DNA of 64,000 nucleotides, taken from Chloracidobacterium sp. CP2_5A. GTDB taxonomy: Bacteria > Acidobacteriota > Blastocatellia > Chloracidobacteriales > Chloracidobacteriaceae. Shown here piece by piece: positions 3,263 through 9,825 of the stretch (within the stretch, counting starts at the first letter, position 1; each line of letters begins with the position of its first letter). Below the pieces are notes generated by a model. That model was not told the DNA's origin, ran no database searches, and saw nothing but the letters and a program-made list of their open reading frames with translations. The DNA lies in the NCBI GenBank assembly GCA_002254845.1, contig NKPT01000002.1:62001-126000 (forward strand), in the 5' to 3' direction. Made by a program: the position numbers and the translations under genes.

Positions 3263-3292
3263 TTGACAGTGCGCAACTAAGATTTTTATATT
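3263..3292 (+). promoter_or_regulatory. Sigma-70-type promoter of clpB
   Basis: TTGACA at 3263-3268 is followed 17 nt later by TTATAT (3286-3291); with an 18-nt spacer the hexamer reads TATATT. The surrounding region is unusually AT-rich for this genome. The predicted transcript starts near 3298. CTTGACA plus the downstream ACTAAG also resemble degenerate halves of a HAIR operator (CTTGAGT-N7-ACTCAAG), but too weakly to call. Confidence 0.75.
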
Positions 3293-3340: not shown

Positions 3341-5986
3341 ATGCGACACGATCAGTTTACCCTCCGCGCCCAAGAAGCCATTGCCGCCGCCGTCACGCTC
3401 ACCCAGGAGCGACAGCATCCGCAGGTGGAGCCAGAGCACTTGCTCGCCGCCCTGCTGGGGCAGGCGGATGGCATTGCCAGGCCGATTCTTGAAAAGATTG
3501 GCGTTGTCGTGCCGCCCCTGCTCAGGGAAGTCGAGGCGGCGTTGGCGAAGCTGCCGCAGACGAGCGGCGGCGAGCGGTATTTTTCAGGTCGCGTCTCAAC
3601 GCTCTTTGTCAACGCGCGCAAGGAAGCTGACAAGCTTCAGGACACCTACGTTAGCACCGAGCATCTGTTGCTGGCGATGGTCGAGGAGAAGGAGAGCGTG
3701 GCGGGTCGCCTGCTGCGTCAGTCCGGCGTGACGCGCGACGCGCTGCTCAAGGTCATCGCCGACCTGCGCGGCAATGAGCGCATCGTCGATCCTGACCCGG
3801 AATCCAAGTATCAGTCGCTTCAGAAATACGGGCGCGACCTGACGGAGCTGGCGCGGGCCGGCAAGCTTGATCCGGTCATTGGGCGCGACGATGAAATTCG
3901 GCGCGTGATTCAGGTGCTGTCGCGGCGGACGAAAAACAATCCCGTGCTCATTGGCGAGCCGGGCGTCGGCAAAACGGCGATTGTCGAAGGGCTGGCCATG
4001 CGGATTGTCTCCGGCGATGTGCCGGAATCGCTCAAGAACAAGCGGCTGTTGACGCTTGATCTCGGCGCGATGCTGGCCGGGGCGAAGTATCGCGGCGAGT
4101 TTGAGGATCGCCTCAAGGCTGTGCTGAAGGAAGTCGTCCGCTCCAATGGCGAGGTCATTCTTTTCATTGACGAATTGCATACGCTGGTCGGCGCGGGCGC
4201 GAGCGAGGGCGCGCTAGACGCCTCCAACATGCTCAAGCCGGCGCTGGCGCGCGGCGAGCTGCACTGCGTCGGCGCGACGACGCTCAATGAATACAAGAAG
4301 CACATCGAGAAGGACGCCGCGCTGGAGCGTCGTTTCCAGCCGGTGTACGTGCCGGAGCCGACGGTCGAGGACACCATCGCGATTCTACGCGGCTTGAAGG
4401 AGCGCTACGAGGTTCACCATGGCGTCCGCATCAAGGATGCGGCCATCGTGGCGGCCGCGACGCTGTCAAATCGCTACATCGCCGACCGCTTCCTGCCCGA
4501 CAAGGCCATTGATTTGATTGACGAGGCGGCGTCGCGCCTGCGCATCGAGATTGACAGCCTGCCGACCGAGATTGACGAAATCGAGCGCGACATCATGCAG
4601 CGCGAAATCGAGCGTCAGGCGTTGCAGCGCGAGGACGACCCGGCTTCGCGGGAGAGGCGGAGCAAGATTGAGCAGGAGATAGCCGAGCTGCGGGAGCGGA
4701 GCGCGGCCCTCAAGGCCCGCTGGGGCAATGAAAAGAAAATCATCGAGGCCATTCGCGCCGACAAGGAAAAGCTGGAGGAGCTGAAGCTGGAAGCCGAGCG
4801 CTACGAGCGAGTGGGCGACTACGCTAAGGTGGCTGAAATTCGCTACGGCGCGATGAACGAGGCGCGGCAGCGCATTGAGGCCAACCGGGCCAAGCTCGTC
4901 GAGCTGCAATCGGACGGGGCGATGCTCAAGGAAGAGGTGGACGAGTCCGACGTCGCGCTGGTCATCGCCAAATGGACGGGCATCCCGGTCGCCAAGATGC
5001 TCGAAAGCGAGGTTCAGAAGCTCGTCCAGATGGAAGCCCGCATGGGGCAGCGGGTGATTGGCCAGGCGGACGCGCTGCGGGCGGTGGCTAACGCCGTCCG
5101 GCGGGCGCGAGCGGGGCTTCAGGACCCAAACCGCCCGATTGGCTCGTTCATCTTTCTCGGGCCGACCGGGGTGGGGAAGACGGAAACCGCCCGCGCGCTG
5201 GCGGAGTTTCTGTTTGACGATGAGCAGGCGATGATACGGCTGGATATGTCGGAATATATGGAGAAACACTCGGTCGCCCGGCTCATCGGCGCGCCGCCAG
5301 GCTACGTGGGGCACGACGAGGGCGGGCAGTTGACCGAGGCGGTGCGGCGGCGGCCCTACTCCGTCATTCTGCTCGACGAAATCGAAAAGGCTCACCCGGA
5401 CGTGTTCAATGTTCTGCTCCAGGTGCTCGATGACGGGCGACTGACGGACGGCAAGGGCCGGACGGTGGATTTCAAAAACACGGTCATCATCATGACCTCC
5501 AACATCGGCAGCGGCGAGATTTTGGACTGGGGCGGCAACCCGGAGCAAGACGACGAGGTTCGGAAGCGCGTGCTGAAGCTGCTGCGCAGCGTCTTCAAGC
5601 CGGAGTTTCTCAACCGCGTGGATGAGATTGTGATCTTCCACCCGCTCGGGCGGCGGCACTTGCATCAGATCATCGAAGTCCAGCTTGCGCGCCTGCGGGC
5701 GATGCTGGCCGACCGGCACATCACGCTTGAACTGACCGATCTGGCGAAGGATTTGCTAGCCAGCGAAGGCTTTGATCCAACCTATGGCGCGCGCCCGCTC
5801 AAGCGCGCGATCCAAAGCTTGCTTCAAAACCCGCTGGCGCTGAAGCTACTCGACGGGACTGTTCTGGAAGGGCAGACCCTGCGGGTGGATGTCAACGAAA
5901 CCGGCGACGCGTTCACGTTCGCCCCGCAGGCGCCAACCGCCGCGGAAGTCAGCGCCGGCGCGGCGAGCGTCCGAACGGCGCGCTGA
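3341..5986 (+). CDS. clpB: ATP-dependent disaggregase ClpB
   Basis: An 881-residue Hsp100 chaperone that, with DnaK, extracts polypeptides from cytosolic aggregates. The order is: Clp N-domain repeats (1-150), AAA1 with Walker A GEPGVGKT (~205) and pore loop AKYRGEF, Walker B ILFIDELH, a long charged coiled-coil middle domain (~410-525) that marks ClpB, and AAA2 with GPTGVGKT (~607), pore loop GYVG and [12 protein letters not shown]. The ClpP-docking IGL/IGF loop is absent (the region reads [13 protein letters not shown]), as expected for a non-proteolytic ClpB. It opens a heat-shock block with hsp20 and grpE 60-700 bp downstream. A strong promoter and an inverted repeat precede it, suggesting stress control. 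Confidence 0.97.
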
Positions 5987-6048: not shown

Positions 6049-6498
6049 ATGACGCTTCAACGCTTTGATCCCTTTCGTGAACTCATTACGTTGCAAAATC
6101 GGATGAACAGTCTGTTTAGCGAAGTCGGTCTCCTGCCGCGTCCCAGCGCGAATGACGAAGCGGCGGCGATGTGGTCGCCAGCCGTGGACATCTATGAAAC
6201 CGACAAGGAGATTGTTCTCAAGGCCGAGTTGCCCGATGTCAAGCAGGAAGACATTCGCGTGAGCGTGGACAATAACCGTCTTTCCGTGACGGGCGAGCGG
6301 AAGTTTGAATCGGAGGTGAAGCGCGAGAACTATCACCGCATCGAGCGTGCCTATGGTAGCTTCGCGCGCACTTTTTCGCTGCCGCCCACGGTTGACCAGG
6401 ACAACATCCGGGCCGAGTATAAACAAGGCGTCTTGACGGTCTCGCTTCCGAAGCGCGAGTTGGCGCAAGGCAAGAACATTAGCGTTCAGGTCGGCTGA
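6049..6498 (+). CDS. Small heat-shock protein, Hsp20/alpha-crystallin family
   Basis: A 149-residue ATP-independent holdase that binds unfolding proteins until ClpB/DnaK can act. A short N-terminal arm (MTLQRFDPFRELITLQNRMNSLF) precedes the alpha-crystallin domain (~45-140), with PAVDIYETDKEIVLKAELPDV and the closing AEYKQGVLTVSLPKRE. The oligomerisation motif V/I-x-V is present as ISVQVG at the C-terminus. GGAGG lies 12 nt before the ATG. It follows clpB by 62 bp with no terminator between them, so the two are probably co-transcribed. Confidence 0.95.
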   Translation: MTLQRFDPFRELITLQNRMNSLFSEVGLLPRPSANDEAAAMWSPAVDIYETDKEIVLKAELPDVKQEDIRVSVDNNRLSVTGERKFESEVKRENYHRIERAYGSFARTFSLPPTVDQDNIRAEYKQGVLTVSLPKRELAQGKNISVQVG

Positions 6499-6646: not shown

Positions 6647-7366
6647 ATGAGTGACGAATCACGCGAAACGACTGAAACGACTGAAGCGGCCGATGCGACA
6701 GTGCCGGTCGTGCGCGTCACGGACAAGCGTCGACTGTCGATGGAGATCGAAGAGAGCGGCGACGACTCGGCGGCGGATGCCCGGACGGCGTCGCTAGCTG
6801 ATCCCCAGAGGCTGGAGGAGCGCCCTAGCGTTGAGCCGCTTCAGATGAAGATTGAGGAGCTTCAAATGAAGCTCGAAGAGCGGGAAGCTCAGCTTGCGCG
6901 TCTGCGGGCGCAGGTGGTCGAGTTCGAGTCTAAAACCCAGGACGAGTTGCGCGAGACGCGGCGACGATTGGAGCGCGTTTTCGAGCAGCGGGTGACAAGC
7001 GCCCGGCAGACGCTCATTGAGGAGCTGTTGGCCGTTTTTGACAACCTCGACCTGATGCTCGCTGGCGCTGAGAACGCCACCCGCGACGACTTGCTGACGG
7101 GAATTGCCGCGATGCAGCGGTTGCTGTTGCATGCGCTGCAACGCCAGGACATCGAGCGCGTCGAAGCCCTCGGCCAGCCGTTTGACCCGCAGCTTCACGA
7201 GGCCGTCGAAACGGCTTCGGTCGGGCCAGAACAGGATGGGCGGGTTGTCGCGCAAACGCGGCCCGGCTATCGCATGGCTGGGCGCCTCATTCGCCCGGCC
7301 TTGGTTTCGGTCGGGCGCGCCGAGCCGTCATCGGCTGTGCTTTCGGAGACGGAAGTTCCAGCCTGA
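6647..7366 (+). CDS. grpE: Nucleotide-exchange factor GrpE
   Basis: A 239-residue co-chaperone that releases ADP from DnaK. An acidic, disordered N-terminus (1-65) precedes a long coiled coil (~66-125, MKIEELQMKLEEREAQLARLRAQ). The globular head has ELLAVFDNLDLML, FDPQLHEAVE and the C-terminal beta-domain signature RPGYRMAGRLIRPALVSVG. AAGGAG lies 11 nt before ATG 6647. dnaK and dnaJ are not nearby, which is unusual because grpE usually sits with them or with hrcA. The 148-bp gap upstream carries two inverted repeats, so it may have its own stress-regulated promoter. Confidence 0.93.
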   Translation: MSDESRETTETTEAADATVPVVRVTDKRRLSMEIEESGDDSAADARTASLADPQRLEERPSVEPLQMKIEELQMKLEEREAQLARLRAQVVEFESKTQDELRETRRRLERVFEQRVTSARQTLIEELLAVFDNLDLMLAGAENATRDDLLTGIAAMQRLLLHALQRQDIERVEALGQPFDPQLHEAVETASVGPEQDGRVVAQTRPGYRMAGRLIRPALVSVGRAEPSSAVLSETEVPA

Positions 7367-7527: not shown

Positions 7528-9825
7528 ATGATTGACTTTGGCGATTTCGCAGACCGATTTTCAGAGAGCGGACAGCGCGTTATGCGCCGCGCCTATGAGG
7601 AATCGAAGACCCGCGAGCATAACTTTCTTGCGCCAGAACATATTTTTCTCGCCCTGACGGAAGTCGAGCGTCCGCTCATTAATGAGATCATGCAGAGTCT
7701 CAATCTCGACCCGCAGGCCATTCGCAACGCGCTGGACGGGCGGCTGTCCATTCAGCGGCAGTTTGTCGGGAAGCGCATGAAGCTCCACGATGCCACGCGC
7801 GACATCCTCAACAAGGCCATGCGTCGCGCCCGGCAGAGCGGGCGGCAGGCGATTGACTCGACCGACCTGCTGATTTCGCTATTTCAAGACGAGGACGGAG
7901 TGACGGCGTCAGTGCTGAAGCAGTTTGGAGCCGACCCGCAGGATGTCATTGAGCGCGTCGGCTCGCGGCTCAAGTCCCGCGAGGAGCGCGAGGCGCGCAT
8001 TAGCCGCAAGTTCGAGCTGCCGCCTTACATCAAGCACTTCGGAACGAGCCTCAACAAGCTGGCGCGCGACGGCAAGCTGCCGCCGGTCATCGGTCGGGAG
8101 CGCGAAATCCAGCAGATGATCGAGATTCTCTGCCACCGCGAGCGGGCCAACTCGCCCATCCTCATCGGCGAGCCGGGCGTCGGGAAAACGGCGGTGGTCG
8201 AGGGCCTTGCCCAGCTTATCGAGCTGGAGCCGGACCGCGTGCCGCGTCGCCTCCGCAACGCGCACATCGTCTCGATGCAGATTTCCAATGTCGTCGCCGG
8301 CACGATGCTGCGCGGCATGTTCGAGGAGCGCATTCAGGGCGTCATCAACGAAGTCAAGGAGCGCGAAAACCTCATTCTGTTCATTGACGAGGTCCACACA
8401 ATCATTGGGGCCGGCTCGGCGATGGGCGCGGCGGCCGATGCCGCCAACATGTTCAAGTCGGCGCTCGGCCGCGGCGAGTTGCGCATCATCGGAGCCACGA
8501 CCACGACGGAATACAAGGAATACATTGCCGAGGACGAAGCCCTTGCGCGGCGCTTCCGCACCGTGGTCATTGCCGAGCCAAGCGTGGAAGACACCCGCAA
8601 GATTCTCCGCGGCATTCGTCCGCGCCTGGAGCAAAACTACTCCGTGCAGATTTCCGACGAAGCCCTTGAAACAGCGCTGGAAATGGCGCCGCGCTACATT
8701 CGCAGCCTGCACATGCCCGACAAGGTGATCGGGTGGCTTGACACGGCGTCGGTCAAGGTCGAGATCAACCAGCCGGAAGACCCGATGGTGCTCAAGCATC
8801 ACGTCATTGACGTGATCGCGCAGGAATCGCGCATTCCGCACGACATGATTTTCCGCGAAACGACCGAGCGGTTCGCCAACATGGAGGAAGAGTTAGGCAA
8901 GCGCGTGATTGGTCAGCGCGAGGCGGTGGAAAGCGTGGCGCGGCGCCTGCGCCTCAACAAGGGACCGCTCAAGGAGAACTTCTACAAGCCGGATGGCGTG
9001 CTGCTGTTTCTGGGTCCGACCGGCGTCGGCAAGACGGAGCTGGCGAAGTCGGTCGCCGAGTTTATGTTCGGCGACGAGCAGAAGATGATTCGAATTGACA
9101 TGTCAGAGTACCAGGATGGCGTTGTGGCGGTTGAGAAGCTTATCGGCATGCCGCGCGGCATCGTTGGCTCGGAGCGCGGCGGCATCCTGACCGAGCGCCT
9201 GCGCGACAATCCCTACACGGTGCTCCTGCTTGACGAAATTGAAAAGGCGTCGCCCTACTTGCTGAACCTGTTCCTGCAGGCCTTTGACGAAGGATGGCTG
9301 ACGGATGGGCGCGGCAAAAAAGTCTATCTGTCCGACGCGATCATCATCATGACCTCGAACCTTGGCAGCGAGAACTTCAAGAAGTACATGAAGCCGCTTG
9401 GCTTTGGCGCGAAGTCGCTTGGCGATATGAAGGAAATCAAGGGCGAGGTGATGAAGGCGGCCGAAACGCGCTTCTCGCCGGAGTTTCGCAACCGCATTGA
9501 TGAAGTCGTCGTTTTCTCGCCGCTGACGCAGGACGAAGTGCGCCAGATAGCGGTGCTTTACCTGAAGAAGATCGAGCGGCAAATGACCAAATTCGGCAAG
9601 TCGCTGCATGTGACGGAAGCCGCCATTGACCAGCTTGTGCAGCAGGGCTTTAGCCCGGCCTACGGCGCGCGCTTCCTGAAGCGGACGATTGATGAAAAGG
9701 TCAAGCTGCCGATTACGCTTCAGTGGAATGCGTCCAGCCGCTTTGCCGTGGACGCCCGCGATGGGCAGGTTGTCGTGACGGAAGAGCGTCCCGAAACGGC
9801 GCCGGCGGCCTTCTCGGTCAACTAA
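7528..9825 (+). CDS. ClpC/ClpA-like two-ring AAA+ unfoldase with altered pore loops
   Basis: A 765-residue class I Clp ATPase. A Clp N-domain (1-145) is followed by AAA1 with GEPGVGKT (~214), Walker B LILFIDEVH and arginine finger LARRF, then AAA2 with GPTGVGKT (~496), LLLDEIEKA and sensor-2 YGARFLKR. There is no ClpB coiled coil and hardly any ClpC/UVR middle insert, giving ClpA-like length. After Walker B of AAA2 a segment with LGFGAKS (~625) sits where ClpC/ClpA carry the ClpP-docking loop, so it probably feeds a ClpP peptidase. Oddly, the substrate-gripping tyrosine is missing in both pores: AAA1 reads TMLRG instead of KYRG and AAA2 reads RGIVG instead of GYVG, while ClpB in this window is canonical. 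It ends at a strong terminator. Confidence 0.9.
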   Translation: MIDFGDFADRFSESGQRVMRRAYEESKTREHNFLAPEHIFLALTEVERPLINEIMQSLNLDPQAIRNALDGRLSIQRQFVGKRMKLHDATRDILNKAMRRARQSGRQAIDSTDLLISLFQDEDGVTASVLKQFGADPQDVIERVGSRLKSREEREARISRKFELPPYIKHFGTSLNKLARDGKLPPVIGREREIQQMIEILCHRERANSPILIGEPGVGKTAVVEGLAQLIELEPDRVPRRLRNAHIVSMQISNVVAGTMLRGMFEERIQGVINEVKERENLILFIDEVHTIIGAGSAMGAAADAANMFKSALGRGELRIIGATTTTEYKEYIAEDEALARRFRTVVIAEPSVEDTRKILRGIRPRLEQNYSVQISDEALETALEMAPRYIRSLHMPDKVIGWLDTASVKVEINQPEDPMVLKHHVIDVIAQESRIPHDMIFRETTERFANMEEELGKRVIGQREAVESVARRLRLNKGPLKENFYKPDGVLLFLGPTGVGKTELAKSVAEFMFGDEQKMIRIDMSEYQDGVVAVEKLIGMPRGIVGSERGGILTERLRDNPYTVLLLDEIEKASPYLLNLFLQAFDEGWLTDGRGKKVYLSDAIIIMTSNLGSENFKKYMKPLGFGAKSLGDMKEIKGEVMKAAETRFSPEFRNRIDEVVVFSPLTQDEVRQIAVLYLKKIERQMTKFGKSLHVTEAAIDQLVQQGFSPAYGARFLKRTIDEKVKLPITLQWNASSRFAVDARDGQVVVTEERPETAPAAFSVN

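Follow-up and report, generated by a model that had tools for sequence, protein, structure and literature searches.

Locus and protein architecture

The window analysed here is the whole stretch of 64,000 nucleotides from Chloracidobacterium sp. CP2_5A (contig NKPT01000002.1, positions 62,001 to 126,000). Positions 7528–9825 of its forward strand encode a two-ring Hsp100/Clp ATPase of 765 residues, in which the tyrosine expected to grip substrate in the pore is replaced in both rings, by leucine in ring 1 and by isoleucine in ring 2. This pore-variant clp gene comes after clpB, hsp20 and grpE on one strand, with successive spacings of 62, 148 and 161 bases. The replacement is genuine and conserved, reflecting neither error nor drift, and the protein belongs to a separate subfamily of Hsp100/Clp unfoldases in Acidobacteriota that is ClpA-like and lacks an M-domain; it is ClpC neither by descent nor by architecture.

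The domain content (Clp_N, AAA, AAA_2, lid and D2-small, with AAA1 and AAA2 as the two ring modules), with Walker A and B motifs in both rings, is that of class I Hsp100/Clp proteins. The Clp N-terminal domain (Pfam Clp_N, residues 1–145, 7528–7962) shows high entropy and is the least conserved part of the protein. Alignment places the Walker A motifs at 8167–8190 (AAA1, GEPGVGKT) and 9013–9036 (AAA2, GPTGVGKT). The ATPase residues K220, D287, E288, R341/R342, K502, D569, E570, N611, R656 and R715 are invariant in an alignment of 15 sequences, and the Walker A and B motifs, arginine fingers, ring-2 sensor 1 and sensor 2 show no variation in it. The first-pass annotation, a reading of the DNA sequence by itself, had described Walker A/B, arginine finger and sensor 2 as intact and is borne out here. 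Because these residues are invariant, the sequence leads us to expect an active hexamer.

The protein aligns with ClpA in a single continuous stretch, whereas its alignment with Staphylococcus aureus ClpC falls into two parts with about 55 ClpC residues unmatched between them (phmmer); the M-domain is thus absent. Scores against the models of established classes remained below cut-off, with 633 bits against 993 (TIGR02639) and 464 against 1350 (NF008263) for ClpA, 649 against 1232 for ClpB (TIGR03346), 574 against 885 for ClpV/TssH (TIGR03345), and 542 and 511 against 1900 for ClpK/ClpG (NF033606 and NF033607). In the trees, the pore-variant family formed a single clade with full support (100/100) and a long stem, separate from ClpA (its own clade, 100/100), ClpB and ClpK; long branches meet in these trees, which fix neither the position of ClpC nor the sister group of the clade. 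The first tree paired the family with ClpV; since this may reflect long-branch attraction, ClpV was left out of a second tree.

The predicted monomer (15 sequences) reached a mean predicted local distance difference test score (pLDDT) of 81, and its best PDB matches are chains of ClpC, ClpB and Hsp104. Besides the C-terminal tail, its low-confidence stretches are residues 257–262, 297–300, 543–549 and 624–627, i.e. the expected sites of the pore-1 loops of both rings, of the pore-2 loop of ring 1 and of the loop for ClpP. As to the earlier label of a "ClpC-like unfoldase", the likeness covers the LGF loop and the best matches; with the M-domain missing and a clade of its own, the protein is not a ClpC.

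Pore loops and ClpP docking loop

The first-pass annotation had placed TMLRG (near residue 260) and RGIVG (near 540) where both rings should carry the pore tyrosine, and the alignments agree. Residues 259–263 of the translation read TMLRG and residues 542–547 PRGIVG; L261 (codon CTG) pairs with the KYRG tyrosine and I545 (codon ATC) with the GYVG tyrosine of S. aureus ClpC in phmmer, and an alignment of 54 proteins returned the same register. The AAA1 pore-1 loop, AGTMLRG, lies at 8296–8316 and the AAA2 pore-1 loop, GMPRGIVGSERGG, at 9145–9183, each coinciding with a low-pLDDT loop of the model.

Conservation was followed in 124 distinct orthologues with at least 53% identity to the window protein. 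Residue 261 is leucine in 118/120 and phenylalanine in 2/120, encoded by five different leucine codons; residue 545 is isoleucine in 123 sequences, with three isoleucine codons, and phenylalanine in one. Tyrosine occurs at neither site. The variation among synonymous codons indicates that the amino acid itself is conserved, not merely the DNA. The exact GMPRGIVGSERGG motif recurs in 121 of the 124 orthologues, and both pore-1 loops belong to the most conserved 1% of equal-length segments, their near-zero entropy resembling that of the Walker A motifs. Leucine and isoleucine at these sites hence define a conserved subfamily, as had been proposed for checking: the orthologues lack tyrosine throughout and form a clade of their own.

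The possibility that other aromatics occupy the pore, raised along with the original observation, is not realised, as no other aromatic has taken a place in any of the four pore loops. The position after GYVG is serine in the pore-variant family versus tyrosine, phenylalanine or histidine in ClpA, ClpB and ClpC. In ring 1, methionine replaces both the lysine before the tyrosine site and the acidic residue after RG. The AAA1 pore-2 loop (residues 294–302, 8407–8433), identified by alignment and again a low-pLDDT loop, has a ClpA-like length. The AAA2 pore-2 loop (9112–9135) reads QDGVVAVE instead of MERH-TVS by alignment and entropy, with one residue inserted; across the family, the ERH-TVS of ClpA, where this loop comprises residues 526–531 (PMC9663308), has become DG-x-[VI]-x-[VI]-[ED], a change that the first-pass annotation had not mentioned.

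A ClpP-type docking loop, PLGF, judged as such from its sequence, is located at 9394–9405, at another low-pLDDT loop. It aligns with the LGF/IGF loops of ClpC and ClpA and is missing from ClpB. In agreement with the earlier mention of an LGF loop, all 124 orthologues carry [LMFV]-G-[FY] at the ClpP-loop position of ClpA and ClpC. As LGF-type motifs bind ClpP (PMC5540906), docking of the protein to ClpP is likely.

Distribution and co-resident Clp motors

In its own class (Blastocatellia by locus names), the protein has a match in 94/98 genomes, which is of orthologue level in 91/98; the best match is of paralogue level in G008, G034 and G084. Occurrence in other Acidobacteriota classes is patchy (20/119, 1/5 and 2/38 genomes), and three genomes of another class (G397, G435 and G439) hold two copies each. 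Phyla beyond Acidobacteriota were covered solely via the best 80 matches of one contig scan, which does not imply absence there; all 80 carry Acidobacteria-type titles, those with names being mostly Blastocatellia and Pyrinomonadaceae, and uncultured Chloracidobacterium is nearest. The carriers of the gene include at least one strain described as an isolate, Pyrinomonas methylaliphatogenes K22.

A mobile or phage origin was considered and rejected. No close plasmid or phage relative emerged: all plasmid matches in one search, and all phage matches to an 80-residue ring-2 query, are below 60% identity, and the viral-contig matches with a readable ring-2 loop have GY[VI]G. With the ring-2 query, one of 2071 plasmid records matched at 60–80% identity, the sequence itself not having been inspected. 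A role in anti-phage defence was likewise set aside, as PADLOC models matched partially and in the AAA regions alone.

The question whether canonical relatives are present in the same genome, posed by the first-pass annotation, is answered in the affirmative: it encodes ClpB, a tyrosine-bearing ClpA adjoining ClpS, and a ClpC-like unfoldase (KYRG/GYIG). One clear ClpP is found near a ClpX-like gene, and a second match is weak and of uncertain nature. With ClpA/ClpS, ClpC-like, ClpB and ClpP all present, the pore-variant Clp is an additional motor rather than a replacement. The ClpC-like protein (787 residues, GYIG) sits on a long branch and is called ClpC-like rather than ClpC for that reason.

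Chaperone neighbourhood

The first gene of the cluster encodes a canonical ClpB (3341–5986, forward strand, TIGR03346 above cut-off), whose KYRG and GYVG loops are normal, as noted before. It is followed on the same strand by an Hsp20 small heat-shock protein (6049–6498, Pfam HSP20) and GrpE (6647–7366, Pfam GrpE). The association is widespread in the class: after duplicate loci were dropped, one or more of GrpE (47), ClpB (45), Hsp20 (42) and GroEL (20) lie just upstream in 50/64 distinct informative loci. Outside the class, GroEL directly precedes the gene at one locus whose flank is short (L061).

Comparison with known systems

With E. coli ClpA, the partner of ClpP and ClpS, the protein shares two AAA+ rings, the absence of an M-domain, a hydrophobic-G-hydrophobic ClpP loop and the length of the ring-1 pore-2 loop. 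It differs from ClpA in the replaced KYR/GYVG tyrosines, the changed ring-2 pore-2 loop, a score below the model cut-off and a separate clade, and the genome has its own ClpA beside ClpS. ClpC of S. aureus and Mycobacterium tuberculosis provides the best sequence and fold matches and the same LGF loop, but has a short ring-1 M-domain and pore tyrosines that are absent here, falls outside the clade, and has a separate ClpC-like counterpart in the genome. Unlike ClpB, the protein combines a ClpP-type loop with the lack of a long M-domain, and scores below the ClpB cut-off.

Aromatic loss in one ring has known precedents. In p97/Cdc48 the ring-1 pore residue is non-aromatic (Leu/Met) and evolutionarily fixed (PMC5511170, PMC9098461); unlike Clp proteins, however, p97/Cdc48 is a classical AAA protein that retains aromatics in ring 2 and works with ubiquitin cofactors and the proteasome. 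ClpV/TssH also lacks the ring-1 tyrosine (SVKG in the 54-protein alignment), whereas its ring 2 retains GYVG, its role is in secretion, and the pore-variant protein falls below its cut-off. ClpI of Actinomycetota, compared here by its published description, is similar as a recently reported extra double-ring Clp class beside ClpB and ClpC, some members having an LGF loop; it is said to possess an M-domain (PMC10149685). Clp-like proteins of two large viral contigs (L163 and L165) show a resembling ring-1 segment, TTLRGMFEER versus TMLRGMFEER, but retain GY[VI]G in ring 2 and are placed outside the clade. Together with those of L171 and L172, these viral proteins have TTLRG or THFRG in ring 1, a ring-1 Walker B of IDD/IDN instead of IDE, and GY[VI]G in ring 2.

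Among the families examined, no other shows a conserved loss of the aromatic from both rings. No published description of a Clp protein with this property was found in a search that left subscription literature mostly outside its reach, so that novelty is not proven.

Possible modes of action

In substrate-bound ClpB, the pore tyrosines form substrate pockets, Y653 of ring 2 being essential and Y251 partly dispensable (PMC6593972). The ring-1 leucine of p97 touches substrate as well, in shallower pockets (PMC9098461), and bulkier pore loops tend to grip more strongly and to pull more slowly, as Rodriguez-Aliaga 2016 is cited in PMC7018516. From the example of p97/Cdc48, whose ring-1 pore carries Leu/Met, we infer that the aliphatic pore of the variant Clp (Met-Leu-Arg-Gly in ring 1, Arg-Gly-Ile-Val-Gly in ring 2) would offer shallower pockets than the tyrosine pores of ClpA, ClpB and ClpC, and thus a weaker grip. 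The enzyme would continue to thread polypeptides while docked to ClpP by the [LMFV]-G-[FY] loop. Given a weaker grip, its clients would be loosely folded, partly unfolded or delivered by chaperones or an adaptor, probably under stress, and stable substrates would be left to the canonical ClpA–ClpS, ClpC-like and ClpX motors that the genome also encodes. Such a ClpP-docking, threading unfoldase with a low-grip aliphatic pore is the explanation we favour, albeit tentatively, its chance falling slightly short of even. The neighbouring chaperone genes, together with the ClpP-type loop, lend plausibility to the specialised role considered earlier, namely as one in quality control.

Several points weigh against the low-grip threading unfoldase. 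ClpB cannot do without its ring-2 tyrosine, so it is conceivable that threading is lost altogether, and not just weakened, where this residue is missing. Conversely, leucine, isoleucine and methionine are bulky and their grip might suffice, and the rare phenylalanine orthologues show that an aromatic is tolerated. Moreover, 0/4 informative loci outside the class have chaperone genes upstream.

The main rival, which we consider rather unlikely, is a Cdc48-like, ClpP-independent remodeller whose ATP-driven ring motions, in concert with ClpB, Hsp20 and the GrpE/DnaK system, would remodel clients or free them from aggregates, with little or no threading. The linkage to clpB, hsp20, grpE and groEL would suit such a function, and eukaryotic Cdc48 has lost its ring-1 aromatic, the restoration of which is lethal in yeast, apparently through proteins being forced into proteasome/20S degradation (PMC5511170). 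Still, Cdc48 retains the aromatic in ring 2, and the ClpP-type loop persists in all orthologues examined, unlike in ClpB. The M-domain, the part of ClpB by way of which DnaK acts, is absent here.

It is also unlikely that the protein is a ClpP-partner unfoldase of ordinary strength, in which leucine, isoleucine and methionine grip as well as tyrosine and the change shifts sequence preference or speed alone. This would accord with the large hydrophobic side chains retained at both sites, with the intact ATPase motifs, and with the substrate contacts of AAA+ motors that have a ring-1 leucine (PMC9098461). However, ClpA, the ClpC-like protein and ClpB of the same organisms retain tyrosine or phenylalanine and the ring-2 pore-2 loop is altered too, which suggests a changed function. 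A regulator or decoy that binds ClpP and nucleotides and, instead of translocating, limits the access of other unfoldases to ClpP would explain a ClpP loop next to a non-canonical pore in a genome with one clear ClpP (and a weak, uncertain second match), but it is very improbable, as the strong constraint on ATPase residues and pore loops would be needless for a decoy. Relaxed constraint, a pseudogene or the sequencing error contemplated earlier, for which nothing speaks beyond the unusual residues, is refuted by their persistence through synonymous codons in 124 orthologues, tyrosine-free throughout, and by the near-zero entropy of both loops.

The pore aromatic, called invariant in a 2022 ClpA paper (PMC9663308), passes for a universal gripping element in AAA+ unfoldases. 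Leucine and isoleucine fixed in both rings class-wide, beside normal paralogues, constitute a natural counter-example, and the need for an aromatic grip becomes directly testable in a natural enzyme. That the family is an Hsp100 class without aromatic grip in either ring, engaging substrate in a distinct manner (aliphatic/Arg pore, rebuilt ring-2 pore-2 loop) and feeding chaperone-held, loosely folded proteins to ClpP, is possible but somewhat doubtful; if true, the statement that the pore aromatic is invariant in AAA+ unfoldases would have an exception in nature.

Further features of the locus

A sigma-70-like promoter, TTGACA-18-TATATT, precedes clpB on the forward strand (3263–3292); it is a pattern match only, with one found and 1.0 expected by chance. 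No controlling inverted repeat of chaperone expression (CIRCE), a heat-shock operator, occurs within the window at up to three mismatches. In 65/82 informative class loci, a secreted-looking protein of about 275 residues is encoded 3' of the pore-variant clp, though not in the window (examples are L112:7812-8645 and L149:7758-8612). It has no Pfam or NCBIfam match; the structural matches of its predicted fold (pLDDT 89.5) are LolA/LolB-type lipoprotein carriers and a DUF1329 protein. A weak homologue is encoded on another contig of the Chloracidobacterium sp. CP2_5A genome.
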